A stretch of DNA of 64,000 nucleotides, from positions 1 to 64,000 of the forward strand of contig JAVJVK010000019.1 in NCBI GenBank assembly GCA_040221175.1. The letters run 5' to 3'. The translations under genes were made by a program, and so were the position numbers. Positions 28,184 to 50,562 of the stretch are shown piece after piece. Numbering within the stretch: position 1 is the first letter of the stretch; every line of letters starts with the position of its first letter. This stretch comes from Phycisphaerales bacterium (GTDB taxonomy: Bacteria; Planctomycetota; Phycisphaerae; Phycisphaerales; UBA1924). A model generated the notes under the pieces. It was not told where the DNA came from and did not search any database. It worked only from the letters and a program-made list of their open reading frames with translations.

Positions 28184-28804
28184 CTAGAGCGAGAGCGCCA
28201 GCGACACCAGGTCCGACGCCTCGAGCCCGTCCCCGGCGTGCTTCTGCCTGGCGAGGGCGACCTTCCTGGTCGCCTCGGCGGGCGGCTCGCCCAGGGCGAT
28301 GAGCGCCCGCACGGCGTCCTCGGCCTGGGGGTCGCTTGGCTTCTTCACTTCCACGGCCGCTTCCATCTCGTCGATGGCCAGCGCGTCGCGGAACGCCGGG
28401 CCGAGTTCCTCGACCAGCGTCCTGGCCAGCTTCGCCCCGATCTCGGGCAGGCGCTTGAGGCCCACCTCGTCGCCCCGGGCGATCATGGCGCCCACTTCGG
28501 TCGGGGGCTCGGCCAGCGCCCGCAGGGCCTTTCGATGCCCCAGCCCGCGGATCTGGGTCATGGCCTCGTAGACCTCACGGTCGGCGGCGGTCGCGAAGCC
28601 GAAGAGGCGGGGGATGAAGCTGGCCCCCTGGTTGGGGCTCTCGAGCACGTGAACGGTGAACAGCTCGGCCTGCGCGCCGGCCCGGCCCAGGCGTCCATCC
28701 ATGTAGGGCGGCAGCAGCACGTCGTAGCTCACGCCCGAGGCGGTGGCGATCGTTGCCCGGCCCGTGCGGATGTCGGCGATGGCGCCGGCGATGTGCGCGA
28801 TCAT
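28184..28804 (-). CDS. ruvA: Holliday junction branch migration protein RuvA
   Basis: DNA-binding subunit of the RuvAB branch-migration complex. The 206-residue protein shows an OB-fold N-domain (MIAHIAGAIADI, GVSYDVLLPPYM), two helix-hairpin-helix motifs (MTQIRGLGHRKALRALAE; LKRLPEIGAKLARTLVEEL) and a C-terminal RuvB-binding domain (AEDAVRALIALGEPPAEATRKV). RuvC and RuvB are not nearby. It heads a minus-strand run and is divergent from the zinc-ribbon cluster. Confidence 0.93.
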   Translation of the reverse strand: MIAHIAGAIADIRTGRATIATASGVSYDVLLPPYMDGRLGRAGAQAELFTVHVLESPNQGASFIPRLFGFATAADREVYEAMTQIRGLGHRKALRALAEPPTEVGAMIARGDEVGLKRLPEIGAKLARTLVEELGPAFRDALAIDEMEAAVEVKKPSDPQAEDAVRALIALGEPPAEATRKVALARQKHAGDGLEASDLVSLALSL

Positions 28805-28912
28805 GGTCGGGGTCCTCGCGGGTGCGTCCGTGCGGCCAGAGGATATCCGCCGGCGGGGGCGATGGCCCGTCGCCCCGGCGGGCGCCGCCGCACGGACCCT
28901 CTACCCTCCGCC

Positions 28913-29344
28913 ATGCCCAGCGCCCCGTCCCAATCCACCGACGCGGACCGCCCGGTCGTGCAGGGGTGGCCGCTGCTTGATCGACGGATCCCCGGGGCGG
29001 TCCGGCGGTGCATGTGGTGGAACGTCTGGGTGAACGGTCCGATGCCGCTCGTCATTCTCATGGCCATCATCCTGGGCGGACTCGGCGCCACCCCGTTCAT
29101 TCGATGGGTGGGCGTGCCCAGCCTGGCGGTGGTCGCGATCGGCTGGGCGTTGTTCTGCCACGCGTCTATCAAGCGCACCCTCCGCCGCGCCGCCGCGCAC
29201 GAGCACCTGCTCTGCCCCGAGTGCCTCTACGACCTGCGCACGCTCCACGCCGCCGGCGCCTGCCCCGAGTGCGGCCGGGCGTACGAGCGCGAGGCCGTGC
29301 GGGCGCAGTGGGTGGATGCGCAGCGGCGGCTCACGCGGAAGTAG
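28913..29344 (+). CDS. two-helix membrane protein with C-terminal zinc ribbon
   Basis: A 143-residue protein: hydrophilic N-terminus, two transmembrane helices (PLVILMAIILGGLGA; VPSLAVVAIGWALF) and a C-terminal zinc ribbon LLCPECLYDLRTLHAAGACPEC followed by RAYEREAVRAQWVD. The CPxCLYDLRxL...CPECG ribbon is a planctomycete-typical module. Function unknown. The last 141 bp are about 90 percent identical to 30968-31108, a detached copy of the ribbon. The start (MPSAPSQS) is chosen as the first ATG after the ruvA divergent region. Confidence 0.7.
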   Translation: MPSAPSQSTDADRPVVQGWPLLDRRIPGAVRRCMWWNVWVNGPMPLVILMAIILGGLGATPFIRWVGVPSLAVVAIGWALFCHASIKRTLRRAAAHEHLLCPECLYDLRTLHAAGACPECGRAYEREAVRAQWVDAQRRLTRK

Positions 29345-29371
29345 GCGAGCCGCGCGGTCCTACGGTTTCCG

Positions 29372-29830
29372 ATGGCGACCATGCCCAACGAGCGACCTCC
29401 CGGCGGGTGGGCCTGGGTGTCCGAGGCGGTGCGCCCGCCGGCCGGGACGCCGCCGGCCGTGGCCGCGCAGCGTCGCCTCGTCCTCGGCTTCACGGGCCTG
29501 TTCGTGGGCGGGCTGGGCCTCTTCCTGCTGACATTCGCAACGGGCGTCGTGCCCAGCGGCGCCCTGGGCGCGCTCTCGATCTTCGTGGCCGGGCTGGGCG
29601 TGGCGGGCGCGCTGTGGGCCGGGCGACGCATCGAGTCGATCTTCCGCGTGGTCCGCCGGTCCGAGTTCACCCTCTGCCCGGCCTGCCTCTACGACCTGCG
29701 GGCCCTCGACCAGGCGGGGACATGCCCCGAGTGCGGGCGGCCGTACGAGCACACGTCGGTGCAGATCCGCTGGGTCGAGGCCGAGCGGCAGCATCGCCTC
29801 TGGCGCGAGGCCCAGCACGCCGGCGACTGA
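29372..29830 (+). CDS. zinc-ribbon membrane protein, paralog of the preceding gene
   Basis: A 152-residue protein with the same plan: a proline-rich hydrophilic N-terminus, two membrane helices (LGFTGLFVGGLGLFLLTF; ALGALSIFVAGLGVAGALWA) and a zinc ribbon LCPACLYDLRALDQAGTCPEC with RPYEHTSVQIRWVEAE after it. It follows the previous gene by 27 bp on the same strand, so both are likely cotranscribed and arose by duplication. Function unknown. Confidence 0.7.
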   Translation: MATMPNERPPGGWAWVSEAVRPPAGTPPAVAAQRRLVLGFTGLFVGGLGLFLLTFATGVVPSGALGALSIFVAGLGVAGALWAGRRIESIFRVVRRSEFTLCPACLYDLRALDQAGTCPECGRPYEHTSVQIRWVEAERQHRLWREAQHAGD

Positions 29831-30025
29831 GCCGGCCGAGCGGCGCCCCGCGGCGGGCGAGCCCGAGCGCCCCAGACGTGCGATCCGTCGCGCGGCCGTG
29901 GCGTCCGGCGAACTCGACGGCCATGTTCCTCGCTCGCGAGAGCGGCTCGTTGCGTGCGTCGGTTGGCCGGGCCGTGGCTTCACGCGGGCGCGCAGCGGTG
30001 ATGCTCGGCCTCGCGGCCGGCCGCG

Positions 30026-30904
30026 TCAGTGGCCATCTGGCAGCAGCCCGCCGAGCACGCCCCTGGCCCGGTGGCACCGCCACGCCAGCAGGCCCATCGA
30101 CGCGACCACGCCCAGGCCGGATGTGCCGATGGCCCACCAGATCGCATCCGCGCTGCTGAGTGCGCGCACGGCGGGGATGAGCCCGATGGCCGGGAGGATC
30201 GACCACGCGACCTCGCGCCAACGCGGCGGCACGGGAGCGCCGGCGCGGGCGAGCACCAGGCGGGCGTACGCCGCGCCGGCGACGTAGAACGCCGCGCACC
30301 CGATCGTCGCGGCGAGCGCGCCCAGGCCCGCCAGGAGCACGCCGGGTCCGGGGGCGACGATGCCCGCCGTCACGCCGGGCAGCACGCCCAGGCCCACGCC
30401 CGCGGCGATGATCATGAGGCCGACGCGGGACGTGCGACGCGGGCCGCTGGCGTACCGCCGGCCCGCCCCGGGGTGCCGCCGCCACCGCCGTTCGAAGGCG
30501 CCCAGCGGCCCGGCGGCGGCCAGCACCAGCACGATGCTCAGCACGAGCGCCACGGTGCCCGCGTCGCGCAGATCGTCGGCGCTGGGAGACGCGACTTCGG
30601 TTGCCGCCACCGCCGCCGCGCACGCCGCCGCCGCGCCGATCAGCAGCGCGGTCCGGCCGATCCAGCCCAGTTCCGCCCGCACGTGCCGGACGTACAGCGG
30701 ATGGCACTTCCGCAGGTCCCACGCCGGCCGACTCGCCGCCACGTCCAGTCCGCACTCGGGGCAGACGCCCGCGGCCGGCAGCCCGGCCAGGCTGTAGCCA
30801 CAGCCGTAGCACCACGCGGGCGATGCGTCGGGCCGGCTCGCCGCGACGCCCGGCCCGCACGCGTCGGCCCGCGGCTCGGGCACGGGATGGTCGTCGGCCG
30901 GCAT
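30026..30904 (-). CDS. zinc-ribbon membrane protein, N-terminal ribbon type (copy 1)
   Basis: A 292-residue protein with the reverse architecture of the neighbours. The ribbon is near the N-terminus (WCYGCGYSLAGLPAAGVCPECGL, residues ~31-53). A hydrophilic segment (WDLRKCHPLYVRHVRAELGW) precedes about six membrane helices. It starts MPADDHPVPEPRADA, closely matching MPADDQPTPEPKADA of the gene at 31118-32017, so the two are paralogs. Function unknown. Confidence 0.7.
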   Translation of the reverse strand: MPADDHPVPEPRADACGPGVAASRPDASPAWCYGCGYSLAGLPAAGVCPECGLDVAASRPAWDLRKCHPLYVRHVRAELGWIGRTALLIGAAAACAAAVAATEVASPSADDLRDAGTVALVLSIVLVLAAAGPLGAFERRWRRHPGAGRRYASGPRRTSRVGLMIIAAGVGLGVLPGVTAGIVAPGPGVLLAGLGALAATIGCAAFYVAGAAYARLVLARAGAPVPPRWREVAWSILPAIGLIPAVRALSSADAIWWAIGTSGLGVVASMGLLAWRCHRARGVLGGLLPDGH

Positions 30905-30964
30905 CGCGGGATCATTGGCGCGGGCGGGGGTGTCCACGGACCACGCGCCCGCGCCGTTCGGGCC

Positions 30965-31108
30965 GACCACCTGCTCTGCCCGCAGTGCACCTACGACCTG
31001 CGCACCCTCGACGCGGCGGGCGCCTGCCCCGAGTGCGGCCGGGCGTACGAGCACGGGGCCGTGCGGGCGCAGTGGGTGGATGCGCAGCGGCGGCTGAAGC
31101 GCACGTAG
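30965..31108 (+). pseudogene. detached zinc-ribbon fragment, 3' end of a 28913-type gene
   Basis: This stretch encodes DHLLCPQCTYDLRTLDAAGACP, then ECGRAYEHGAVRAQWVDAQRRLKRT and a stop. It matches the last 47 codons of the gene at 28913-29344 at both protein and DNA level (about 127 of 141 aligned bases by eye, counting from 30968). No membrane helices or credible start precede it; upstream is the N-terminal region of the opposite-strand paralog. Both cysteine pairs and the reading frame are intact, so it could still be expressed if a start exists (for example the ATG near 30888), but it looks like a relic of duplication or recombination. Confidence 0.65.
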
Positions 31109-31117
31109 CGCGGGCGT

Positions 31118-32017
31118 TCAGTCGGGCTGGGAGAGCAGGCCCTTGAGCACGCGCAGCGCCCGGCCACATCGCCGCGTGGCCCGGGCAGCCGTCAGCATGA
31201 TGGCCACCAGCCACGGCACGGCCAGCCACCACCACGGGGTGTAGCCGCCCAGCGCCGAGGCGAACGCGGCCGTGTAGCCGATCCACACCACCGCGTCAAC
31301 GGCCGCATCGTTGCTCTGGGAGGCTTCGTAGCCGGCGCGATCGAGGATGTGGCTGGCGTAGTCGAAGGTGGCCGCGCACGCGATGCCCACGCCGAGCACG
31401 CCGGCCACCAGGGCGACCACCGCAAGCGCGATGCCGAGCGGCTGGAAGGCCTCCCGCACCGCCGCGGCGATGGCCAGGGGGATGGCCGCGCCCGCGGCGA
31501 GCAGGTACACGCTGGCCCGCACCCGCCCGCGCATCGACGCGCCCGGGGCGAGATGGTCGTTGGCGTGGCGGCGCATGCGCCGCGCGGCCAGAACGAGGCC
31601 GCCAACGCCGAACAAGACGCCGGGCAGCACGCCACCGCTGATCAGCCCGCGGGCGTAACCCTCGGCGGCCAGGCCATCGATCAAGGGGTCCAGCAGCAGC
31701 GCTGCGGCGCCCGCCATGGCGCCAAAGCCGATCCAGAACGCGGCCCAGAACAACGCGCCGAGCTCGTCGACGTCCTGCGCAATGATCGCCCGATGGCACG
31801 CGCGAAGATCCATCGCCGGCCAGCTCGCCGCGACATCCCGACCGCACTCGGGGCACACCCCGGCAAGGTCCAGGCCCACTAGCTCGTACCCGCACGCGAC
31901 GCAGCGCGCCCCCGCGGGCGGCCGCTCCGCGGTGGGTTCCAATCGCCCCGCGGCGGGGGCGACCGGCTCGGCGGCGTCGGCCTTCGGCTCGGGCGTGGGC
32001 TGGTCGTCGGCCGGCAT
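31118..32017 (-). CDS. zinc-ribbon membrane protein, N-terminal ribbon type (copy 2)
   Basis: A 299-residue paralog of the 30026-30904 gene. It has the MPADD N-terminus, a ribbon RCVACGYELVGLDLAGVCPECG, the motif WPAMDLRACHRAIIAQDVDELG that parallels WDLRKCHPLYVRHVRAELG in copy 1, then about six membrane helices (FWAAFWIGFGAMAGAAALLL and following) and a conserved basic C-terminus CGRALRVLKGLLSQPD versus CHRARGVLGGLLPDGH. The frame stays open upstream through the 21-bp repeat array, but the MPADD start shared with copy 1 argues against that extension. Function unknown. Confidence 0.7.
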   Translation of the reverse strand: MPADDQPTPEPKADAAEPVAPAAGRLEPTAERPPAGARCVACGYELVGLDLAGVCPECGRDVAASWPAMDLRACHRAIIAQDVDELGALFWAAFWIGFGAMAGAAALLLDPLIDGLAAEGYARGLISGGVLPGVLFGVGGLVLAARRMRRHANDHLAPGASMRGRVRASVYLLAAGAAIPLAIAAAVREAFQPLGIALAVVALVAGVLGVGIACAATFDYASHILDRAGYEASQSNDAAVDAVVWIGYTAAFASALGGYTPWWWLAVPWLVAIMLTAARATRRCGRALRVLKGLLSQPD

Positions 32018-32063
32018 CTCGGCATCCTTAGCCCGCGCGGGCCGGAGCGCGGGCGTGGCGTCG

Positions 32064-32231
32064 GGGATCGGCCCCCGATCCTCCCGAATCGCGCCGCGAT
32101 CATCGTGAATCAGCGGCTGATTCACGATGATCGGCCGGTGATCCTCGACGATCCGTGGGCGATTTTCGAGGATTCTGCTGGGTTTTTCGTGGATCGGCGA
32201 GAGAATCGCGCGGATCCGGCGCGGATTGGCG
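32064..32231. repeat. eight degenerate 21-bp tandem repeats
   Basis: From 32064 the sequence divides cleanly into consecutive 21-bp units, each with the pattern nnGATCnGnnGnnGATTnnCG or a close variant. Examples are GGATCGGCC at 32065, GATCGGCCGGTGATCCTCG at 32129, GATCCGTGGGCGATTTTCG at 32150 and GATCCGGCGCGGATTGGCG at 32213. A ninth unit (32232-32252) is very weak. Each unit has two GATC/GATT/AATC words about 10-11 bp apart, so one word falls on nearly every helical turn for about 170 bp. The array fills most of the intergenic region between the divergent genes at 31118-32017 and 32318-33001. Adjacent units do not have identical sequence, so this is not a CRISPR or a simple microsatellite. 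Confidence 0.75.
32097..32133. promoter_or_regulatory. 17-bp perfect inverted repeat within the 21-bp array
   Basis: CGATCATCGTGAATCAG is followed by CGG and then CTGATTCACGATGATCG, a perfect 17-bp palindrome with a 3-nt centre. It spans parts of repeat units 2 to 4 and is much more symmetric than the surrounding units. It could be an operator for a dimeric protein, or a hairpin in a transcript. No T tract follows on either side. Confidence 0.6.
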
Positions 32232-32317
32232 AAAGTCGGGCGGCGGCCCGGCCGATGCTCTCCAGGGAGCGACCGGTCGCCGATGGGCGGTGGCCGGGGC
32301 GCCGTGGAGGTTTCGTC

Positions 32318-33001
32318 ATGCGACTGCCGAGCTCGAAGATCGGGAAGCTGGAGTACCTCGAACGCCGCGTGGGCGGGTGGGACGCCGATCCGGCCGCCGT
32401 GGGGCTGGCGAGCGGCCAGTCGGCCGCGGCGGTCGAGAGCACGCAAGCCGCCCGGGCCGCGTACGACGAGATGCTGGCCGCGCGGCGCAAGGCCGAGGCG
32501 CTGCACGACGCGTGGCTGGGGGCCATGAAGACGGCCGAGGGCGATGGGCGCTCGTGCCTGCGCTCGATCGACGCGTTCGCCAAGAACAGCCCACAGCCGG
32601 ACACCATCTACGCGAGGGCGTCCATCGAGCCGCCCAAAGACAAGCACCCGCTGGGCAAGCCGCCGACCCCGACGAAGGTCCGCATCACCATGGACACCCA
32701 GGGCCAGGCGAACCTGGCATGGGGCGGCACGCGGCACGGCGGCACGGTCTTCCAGGTGCAGCGCCGCACGATCGGCATCGACGACGTGGAGGGCCCGTGG
32801 GAAACGGTCGCCACCGTGGCCGAGCGCAGGTTCGTCGACGAGGCGACGCCGAGCGGCGTGCGGGGCGTGAGCTACCGCGTGCGCGGGCAGCGCTCGGGCG
32901 GCGTGGGTTTCTACTCGAGCCCGATCGTTATGCCGATGGGCGTGTCGGGCGTCGCGGGGACCATCGCGCCGGCGCGGGGGAGCGGGCGGGCGGCGGGCTG
33001 A
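32318..33001 (+). CDS. fibronectin type III-like protein, unknown
   Basis: A 227-residue protein starting at an ATG with GGAGG 7 nt upstream. Residues ~1-105 are helical and hydrophilic (KLEYLERRVGGWDADP, TQAARAAYDEMLAARRKAEAL). Residues ~115-205 look like one Fn3 domain: TPTKVRITMDTQGQANLAWG, VFQVQRRTIG, GPWETVATVAERRFVDEA, GVSYRVRGQR. No signal peptide is visible. The open frame extends upstream into the 21-bp array, but the strong ribosome-binding site favours 32318. Function unknown; the arrangement recurs in planctomycete genomes. Confidence 0.7.
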   Translation: MRLPSSKIGKLEYLERRVGGWDADPAAVGLASGQSAAAVESTQAARAAYDEMLAARRKAEALHDAWLGAMKTAEGDGRSCLRSIDAFAKNSPQPDTIYARASIEPPKDKHPLGKPPTPTKVRITMDTQGQANLAWGGTRHGGTVFQVQRRTIGIDDVEGPWETVATVAERRFVDEATPSGVRGVSYRVRGQRSGGVGFYSSPIVMPMGVSGVAGTIAPARGSGRAAG

Positions 33002-49857: not shown

Positions 49858-50562
49858 ATGAAGAAGATCGTTGCTGCTTCGATGCTCGCCGTGCCCGCCT
49901 TGGCGCTGGCCCAGGTGACGCCCGTCGGCCCGTTCACCGGTGACCTCCAGGAGGGCTTCGACGCCCTGCCCGGCGGTTTCCCGGCATCCCACCCAGTGTT
50001 CGATGGCACCGCTGAGATGATCAGCACGGGTGGTTCCATGCACACGACCACGGGCTGGAGCTTCATGTGCGTCATCCGTCCGTTCGAGGGTTCGCGCCTG
50101 GCGGCTTCGGCCGGTGGTTTCGTGATCTACGAGTTCACCGACGAGGTCGGCATGTTCGGCGGATACTTCGGCACCAACGCCGATACCAGCGGCCCCGACG
50201 CCACCGCTCGCTTCCTGGACGCTTCGGGCGCCTTGGTTGACGAGGCCGTCATCGAGATCAACCCCGACTGCGCTTGGAACTGGAATGGCTGGGAGGTTGC
50301 CGGCGGCGTCACGACCATCGAGATCGAGGGCGCCGTTTTCGGTGGCGCCTTCGTCCAGATGGACGCGATGGAGCTGACCTACGGCTCGGCCAGCTGCTAT
50401 GCCGACTTCGACATGGACGGCGACCTGACCATCTTCGACTTCCTGGCCTTCCAGAACGCCTTCGACTCGGGCGATCTGGCCGCCGACTGCGACGAGGATG
50501 GCAGCCTGACGCTGTTCGACTTCCTCTGCTTCCAGAACGCGTTCGACGCGGGCTGCGAGTAA
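49858..50562 (+). CDS. secreted protein with GC-type dockerin tail
   Basis: A 234-residue exported protein. The signal peptide is MKKIVAASMLAVPALALAQ (cut near residue 19). The middle is a single beta-rich domain (residues ~20-180: GFDALPGGFPASHPVFDGTAE, FVIYEFTDEVGMFGGYFG, TIEIEGAVFGGAFVQMDAME) that resembles jelly-roll-like modules of planctomycete secreted proteins. The C-terminus has two dockerin-like repeats, DFDMDGDLTIFDFLAFQN and DCDEDGSLTLFDFLCFQN, ending FDAGCE. It follows a leader hairpin and is followed by a strong terminator, so it is probably a monocistronic, well-expressed gene. Confidence 0.85.
   Translation: MKKIVAASMLAVPALALAQVTPVGPFTGDLQEGFDALPGGFPASHPVFDGTAEMISTGGSMHTTTGWSFMCVIRPFEGSRLAASAGGFVIYEFTDEVGMFGGYFGTNADTSGPDATARFLDASGALVDEAVIEINPDCAWNWNGWEVAGGVTTIEIEGAVFGGAFVQMDAMELTYGSASCYADFDMDGDLTIFDFLAFQNAFDSGDLAADCDEDGSLTLFDFLCFQNAFDAGCE

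Follow-up and report, generated by a model that had tools for sequence, protein, structure and literature searches.

In plasmid iterons and multi-operator arrays, tandem sites are placed about two helical turns apart on one face of the DNA and are recognized by proteins that act as oligomers or dimers; the sequence differs from array to array. CRISPR arrays combine a constant repeat with unique spacers of ~25-50 bp. With 10.5 bp per helical turn, two turns correspond to 21 bp.

The nearest prior observation found comes from a long-read study of lake bacteria in which, according to its accessible text, non-coding deletions of Planctomycetota are often located at intergenic tandem repeats (PMC9426551). 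The accessible parts of PMC4060949 and PMC6461901 concern DNA-structure features and freshwater Planctomycetes, respectively. No description of a class of arrays with a fixed 21-bp period was found in the literature searched, whose coverage excluded most subscription journals.

The sequence studied here, called the window, is a stretch of 64,000 nucleotides of a Phycisphaerales bacterium, and it harbors a 21-bp tandem array in the gap between two divergent genes. The features of the locus are as follows.

31118 to 32017, minus strand: divergent neighbor encoding a zinc-ribbon membrane-like protein (CVACGY..CPECG and hydrophobic segments recognized by eye; predicted start).
32061 to 32245, no strand assigned: 21-bp tandem array of ~8.8 units, the eight clean ones at 32067-32234.
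32098 to 32132, no strand assigned: perfect inverted repeat within the array, with 17-bp arms and a 1-bp center at 32115.
32246 to 32317, plus strand: spacer from the array to the start codon of the plus-strand gene.
32318 to 33001, plus strand: divergent neighbor, a member of an FN3-like family with a long helix and an FN3 fold (predicted start, backed by the family alignment).

The eight clean units are in register and start at 32067, 32088, 32109, 32130, 32151, 32172, 32193, and 32214. With lax scoring, TRF delimits the array at 32061-32245 with period 21, 8.8 copies, 61% matches, and 7% indels; with stricter scoring, the window array was not listed. Its self-match is 0.58 at both lag 21 and lag 42, against a mean of 0.27 over lags. 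In a scan of the 64 kb, it ranks first in 21-bp periodicity (z 8.3, runner-up 3.8), and the best z among the other periods of 14-30 is 5.4. The array is real and beyond chance. The exact 21-bp spacing over eight units reported in the preliminary description is borne out, as is the position between divergent genes, with predicted ATG codons at 32017 (minus) and 32318 (plus).

The words GATC, GATT, and AATC occur 15 times in 168 bp of the array, compared with a mean of 1.85 and a maximum of 8 elsewhere in the window. Two such words per unit, about 10-11 bp apart, had been claimed. The first 11 words (32066-32171) follow this rule with alternating spacings of exactly 11, 10, 11, and 10 bp, but the last ones depart from it (21, 12, 9, and 11 bp). 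The array also forms an inverted repeat, a feature absent from the preliminary description. Its arms match at 17 out of 17 positions (column-shuffled mean 12.4, z 5.2), and the repeat is located in the portion (~32088-32159) that matches an array on the rpsD side in the same genome. A phage or mobile-element link through this central palindrome was dropped: the sole match in viral contigs is taken as chance because the motif is part of a long tape-measure-like ORF, with no array seen around it.

The product of the plus-strand gene was modeled with AlphaFold (mean pLDDT 89.6, pTM 0.48) as a long helix followed by an FN3 fold, and its Foldseek list is dominated by FN3-type domains (best E 1.9e-5). 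A promoter is predicted in the spacer at 32246-32317 or in the 3′ end of the array. The minus-strand frame is open from 31118 to 32737, in accordance with the earlier statement that both strands stay open across the array; on the plus strand this is not the case, since the listed ORF sharing the frame of the plus gene begins inside the array, at 32105. As judged by eye, neighboring genes at 28800-32017 also encode CxxC..CPECG zinc ribbons with hydrophobic segments, an apparent local expansion on both strands. Further away, at 402-555 and 50401-50553, there are 81-bp tandem duplicates which by eye resemble coding repeats of the dockerin calcium-binding type.

A DNA search of the whole genome (3.44 Mb, 20 contigs) for the pattern of the window array, a check proposed in the preliminary description, gave two more arrays of similar sequence, one between an ilvE-like gene and rpsD and one upstream of a TPR protein gene. 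The feature common to the arrays of this genome is the period and not the sequence. This was determined by a census that covered a quarter of the genome (864 kb), comprising 800 kb of contiguous blocks picked blind to repeats plus the window, for periods 13-32, with a lag-21/42 detector and a filter against low-complexity coding sequence. The filtered calls number 30 at period 21, two at 14, one at 15, and none at the 17 other periods. Distinct intergenic arrays of period 21 amount to 26, that is, ~1 per 33 kb, leaving out 101887 (seryl-tRNA-synthetase-like coding), 145214 (within an FN3 gene), 215231 (a second stretch in one gap), and 686691 (overlapping a gene start). Extrapolation of this density predicts ~100 arrays in the whole genome. 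In 464 kb without the filter, there were 19 calls at period 21, 16 at 42, and one at 14, the last being the only call at a period that is not a multiple of 3; the other multiples of 3 from 12 to 45 received 2-7 calls each, mostly in the same low-complexity coding places. When indels were allowed, TRF showed long, high-scoring arrays at 21, 42, and 63 and many weaker matches at other short periods, with 27 the commonest; the indels reach 13% in some arrays.

The arrays adjoin FN3, glmS, nrdR-like, ffh-like, and other genes (names assigned by eye), and one more is found near rpsD, outside the sample. An RNase Y identity for the gene beside the array at C4:380305 was dropped, as it was found in one of the seven genomes of the genus at E<=1e-30. 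The sample has 120 intergenic gaps that measure 250 bp or more, and 24 of them contain an array. They are tandem in 14 cases, divergent in seven, and convergent in three, and the respective numbers for array-free gaps are 46, 40, and 10; these counts exclude the gap of the window itself and one array at a block end, and the orientation classes are approximate because the gene models derive from a home-made hexamer caller. The arrays are therefore not limited to promoters, nor do they need divergent genes on either side, and eight of the 24 begin no more than 35 bp from a stop codon.

Units of different arrays are rarely related. Of 595 pairs formed by 35 arrays of the same genome, nine exceeded the 99.9% null, and three of these nine involve arrays located by similarity search. 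Orthologous loci were compared through 11 array pairs from species of the genus (G000 being the genome of the window), tested against column-permuted nulls with 300 permutations. A unit is common to four pairs, namely rpsD of G000 and G001, the FN3 loci L049 (G000) and L044 (G004), and the window locus with G001 and with G006. This is an indication that the sequence does not vary with complete freedom on short time scales. In the remaining seven, 116 to 217 of the 300 permutations scored as high and the units are unrelated: rpsD of G004 with G000 and with G001, glmS of G000 and G001, the FN3 locus L055 (G001) with L049 and with L044, and the window locus of G000 with G005 and with G004.

In the case of rpsD, the arrays are placed at -501..-291, -542..-236, and -536..-321, and the encoded proteins are 97-98% identical to that of G000. 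Such an array occurs in three of the seven genomes of the genus; G005 is weak (0.47), and G002, G003, and G006 have none at the threshold. The array upstream of glmS (C4:715792-716712 of G000, i.e., L267, and its ortholog) is confined to G000 and G001, two of the seven. L049, L044, and L055 have a downstream neighbor of 82-83% identity, and their arrays end 284-301 bp upstream of the start. The window locus is recognized by its neighbor, an M48-type peptidase gene, which is 86% identical in G005 (L047) and also present in G001; the orthology is a best hit of 74% for the G006 gene and a weaker flank match for L051 of G004, 57% to the neighbor of G001.

The orthologous window array of G001 is 80% identical over 141 bp. 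Against G001, G006, and a second locus of G001, the register is net zero over ~32075-32196, where small alignment gaps cancel, and shifts appear only close to the alignment end, in two of the three comparisons. In other species, this locus holds 21-bp arrays built of different units. Absence or dephasing of the array in relatives, which the preliminary description had named as evidence against its view, is thus not what the orthologous array of G001 shows. G001 has a further stretch of 21-bp periodicity, made of a different unit, where another zinc-ribbon gene begins (L039, 5364-5531 of C8).

Samples of 100 kb from twelve other genomes contained clear arrays in G004 (two), G005, G018, G029, and G016 (one each), after a coding-like call in G005 and another in G016 were set aside by eye. 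No clear array was present in the samples of G025, G065, G021, G071, G056, and G051, and that of G070 gave only a 7-bp microsatellite-like call. A 100-kb sample free of arrays is weak evidence, because G025 has an almost perfect array elsewhere. G021, G070, and G071 showed no match to the FN3-like family. The call of G070 (C1:49131) and the regions upstream of FN3 genes in G012 and G024 (L133 and L141) consist of 7-bp repeats that score at 14 and 21 as well, and they are possibly a different type of repeat or a seed of the 21-bp class.

The FN3-like family comprises 44 copies in the genome of the window (32318-33001 and 43 others), each of ~220 aa with a long N-terminal helix. Pfam gave nothing above the cut-off for six members, NCBIfam gave nothing above it for the 14 members of the family alignment, and PHROG gave a weak tail-protein match over the FN3 part in one of six (E 2e-5). 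Within the taxonomic family, 18 of the 46 genomes sampled carry the FN3-like family; across the phylum, 6 out of 119 do, namely three members of the genus and three genomes with partial matches only.

The upstream region could be tested for 43 of the 44 members, L075 being too close to a contig end. Period 21 is top-ranked among 14-30 in 29 of the 43, and in a stricter test 26 have an array upstream, with no qualifying repeat of another period within 14-30. Downstream, none of the 44 has an array of period 21, one has a repeat at 14, one at 15, and two at 27. The stricter test used control lags of 12, 15, 18, 24, and 27, so those periods are handicapped in both counts. Seventeen of the 43 members have no upstream array. 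On the FN3 gene tree, array presence requires seven changes (shuffled mean 13.5), a number as low in none of 500 shuffles. Sister genes may nevertheless carry differing units, for instance the GATC type of the window against the CGTCGTAC type of L049. In other genera of the taxonomic family, clear 21-bp arrays accompany 8 of the 25 FN3 loci that are the best matches among members, in 6 of 15 genomes, and two of these arrays are 0.96-0.97 perfect. From their position, the arrays of this class may regulate the FN3 genes.

The anatomy of the unit was studied in 53 arrays, 44 of the same genome and nine of the genus, chosen for 21-bp periodicity; L063, L066, L070, L094, arrays shorter than 147 bp, and the calls at 101874, 215154, and 686668 were left out. 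Lags 21 and 42 give mean self-matches of 0.59 and 0.60, as the choice of arrays entails, and all remaining lags up to 45 give 0.28-0.31; therefore, there is no general sub-period of 10.5 or 7 bp. A 7-bp sub-repeat was accordingly rejected (shift-7 z>2 in 10 of 53, mean z 0.31, sem 0.14). For the shift of 10, z exceeds 2 in two of the 53, the window array and L076. The 10-11-bp rhythm, and with it a GATC cluster of the Dam or SeqA type as a general feature, was abandoned on this count, and the GATC part of the earlier account is specific to the array type of the window.

Conservation rises and falls once in each unit (z 4.2), with roughly one half of the unit conserved and the other freer. Consensus units are self-complementary at 14.15 positions on average, compared with 12.08 in genomic 21-mers of equal G+C (combined z 7.6), and 12 of 40 are individually palindromic at p<0.05. 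The best dyad lies within 2.5 bp of the conserved center in 34 of 53 arrays (null 23.6, sd 3.5, from shuffling columns inside each half); in two it lies at the free half (null 7.1, sd 2.4). The unit profile underestimates the length of local inverted repeats (mean z 1.38, sem 0.22), and z exceeds 2 in 19 of 53 arrays. Units fitting another register better are 10 out of 459, and among 27 strong unit matches located in the flanks outside the array borders, 12 are in register, 1.3 being expected if uniform; because the detector favors phase-coherent arrays, it accounts for part of the scarcity of phase slips, and these counts are supportive rather than proof.

The array is a member of a lineage-specific class of intergenic tandem arrays, united by their 21-bp period and not by sequence. 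The mostly unrelated arrays of this repeat length suggest that the spacing is kept rather than the sequence. The explanation we tentatively place first, at somewhat below an even chance, is that the two-turn spacing is selected, for same-face protein sites or for in-phase bending, while the sequence turns over by tandem duplication. It also upholds, as the best reading, the earlier preference for selection on spacing over recent slippage, since relatives keep 21-bp arrays and the register is net zero against G001 and G006.

As 21 bp is the shortest whole-base-pair length equal to whole turns of 10.5 bp, the core of every unit falls on the same face of the DNA. Conserved dyad cores, one per two-turn unit, would then be aligned on one face, and a hypothetical oligomeric DNA-binding protein built of dimers may assemble along ~200 bp upstream of a promoter. 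Alternatively, small bends would add up in phase upstream of the promoter. In either case, tandem duplication would swap units and change the sequence fast, and only the changes that keep the phase would survive. We infer that aligned dyad cores for an oligomeric protein are most likely, with bending as a close alternative. Several observations oppose this. About 100 arrays of unrelated units would require many specificities or recognition of shape, and 28 of the 40 consensus units are not palindromic singly at p<0.05, against the dyad-core reading. A promoter role is unlikely in the three convergent gaps out of 24. Selection on spacing is also opposed by the 17 FN3 members free of arrays and by the patchy rpsD and glmS arrays (3/7 and 2/7 genomes). 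The unit shared in four of 11 orthologous pairs, the eight of 24 arrays close to a stop codon, and the lack of 10.5-bp AT phasing and of surplus in-phase roll weigh on the same side.

A broader form of selection on two-turn spacing is a distinct, if somewhat doubtful, possibility: the helical period itself would be the inherited signal, read by machinery or DNA mechanics that recognize a two-turn repeat of any sequence, with FN3-family genes as the main clients and species keeping the array while its units are replaced.

The main rival, which we regard as rather unlikely, is a mutational ruler, in which a replication, repair, or mobile-element enzyme of the lineage duplicates exactly 21 bp in non-coding DNA. 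At the same rather low level of belief, the arrays would be born, homogenized, and lost neutrally, with selection keeping the coding sequence free of them. Period and arbitrary sequence are explained more simply in this way, for instance the unrelated units in seven of 11 orthologous pairs, and a ruler accords with the 24 of 120 gaps that hold an array with no clear preference of orientation. The longer local palindromes (19 of 53 arrays) fit template-switch mutation. We know of no enzyme with a 21-bp duplication step, which counts against the ruler. The frequent deletions at intergenic tandem repeats of Planctomycetota, as far as described in the accessible text of PMC9426551, are in its favor. 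It is disfavored by the placement at FN3 genes, as 26 of 43 upstream against none of 44 downstream is hard to reconcile with a position-blind process, and by the clustering of array presence along the FN3 gene tree. Degenerate arrays that are still in register also speak against it, within the bias of the detector toward coherent ones.

Less probable still is that DNA mechanics suffices, with in-phase repeats of any unit summing small bends into curved DNA before promoters or between genes and no specific protein reader. Bending was computed with a simple roll model, in which perfect 210-bp repeats bend by 0.194 degrees/bp at period 21 and by 0.016-0.030 at periods 17-20 and 22-24. Real arrays bend 1.94 times as much as their shuffles, with 45 of 53 exceeding their own shuffled mean, and free sequence together with a strict period would be accounted for. 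On the contrary, the model also bends periods 31 and 32 (0.13), yet the census has no calls there. No in-phase roll was found in excess of column-permuted units (mean z 0.08, sem 0.15), nor is the AT phasing of the arrays at 10.5 bp significant (z 1.4). Dyad cores next to free halves are left unexplained by curvature. Selected two-turn spacing is favored because repetition at period 21 bends the DNA in the model whatever the unit is, and the real units add nothing beyond repetition.

The arrays are quite improbable as elements acting as RNA or single-strand hairpins in 3′-end formation, termination, or stability. Such a role would agree with the excess of local inverted repeats (mean z 1.38) and with the eight of 24 arrays starting close to a stop codon, but just three of 24 gaps are convergent, the FN3 genes carry their arrays at the 5′ and never at the 3′ side, and hairpins do not need a two-turn DNA period. 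A search of Rfam with 31900-32450 gave no family at gathering score, the best being a chance-level mir-138 (E 0.15).

The coding heptad repeat put forward in the preliminary description, i.e., seven codons per 21-bp unit translated from one strand, is rejected on the sequence evidence in spite of the matching length and the open minus-strand frame: relative to three related loci, the array differences by codon position are, for the plus frame, 14/17/11, 20/20/14, and 15/20/14 and, for the minus frame, 10/17/15, 12/23/19, and 14/20/15, lacking the third-position excess of the adjacent gene (30/24/50, 29/25/50, and 29/21/50), the column conservation of the units shows no periodicity of 3 (mean z 0.12, sem 0.14), and the filtered census has no calls at 18, 24, 27, or 30.

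Searches by sequence similarity, the usual route to conserved non-coding function, would largely miss these arrays: period, place, and anatomy persist, though most arrays are dissimilar and those of several orthologous loci are unrelated. If the period is selected, the arrays would constitute a natural experiment, replicated many times, on helical phasing alone in bacterial intergenic DNA, and they would point to a DNA-binding protein or an effect of DNA mechanics in Phycisphaerae tied to a large FN3 family. If the mutational ruler is true, an enzyme duplicating DNA in exact 21-bp steps awaits discovery.

In comparison with known systems, the CRISPR array is set aside by size, as the whole unit is 21 bp and its free half ~10 bp. 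The arrays resemble iterons and operator arrays in having sites at whole helical turns and a conserved core with a free spacer. They differ in their density of ~1 per 33 kb beside ordinary genes and in that no shared binding protein is known. A plasmid iteron at a replication origin by a Rep gene was also discarded, since the 26 arrays lie beside ordinary genes (names by eye). Similarly to REP and BIME elements with RAYT transposases, which the accessible text of PMC3733652 reports in Planctomycetes too, the units are short, extragenic, palindromic, and clustered. REPs, however, are described there as families that each share one sequence, with GTAG or CGTC tags, whereas the present arrays have a fixed period and, for the most part, unrelated units; the nine similar pairs out of 595 exclude a single palindromic family across the genome.

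The tandem repeats of lake Planctomycetota share with the present arrays the phylum, the intergenic site, and the proneness to length change, and the accessible text of PMC9426551 states no unit length, phase, or gene association for them. Prokaryotic satellites, minisatellites, and VNTRs, as defined in the accessible text of PMC6749651, consist of at least four head-to-tail units of 10-200 nt, are partly intergenic, and arise by tandem duplication; with its eight 21-bp units, the window array fits this definition. The same text describes no lineage-fixed period, and most of its long-repeat satellites are multiples of 3 and likely coding. In the genome studied here, on the contrary, mostly unrelated non-coding arrays have a single period.
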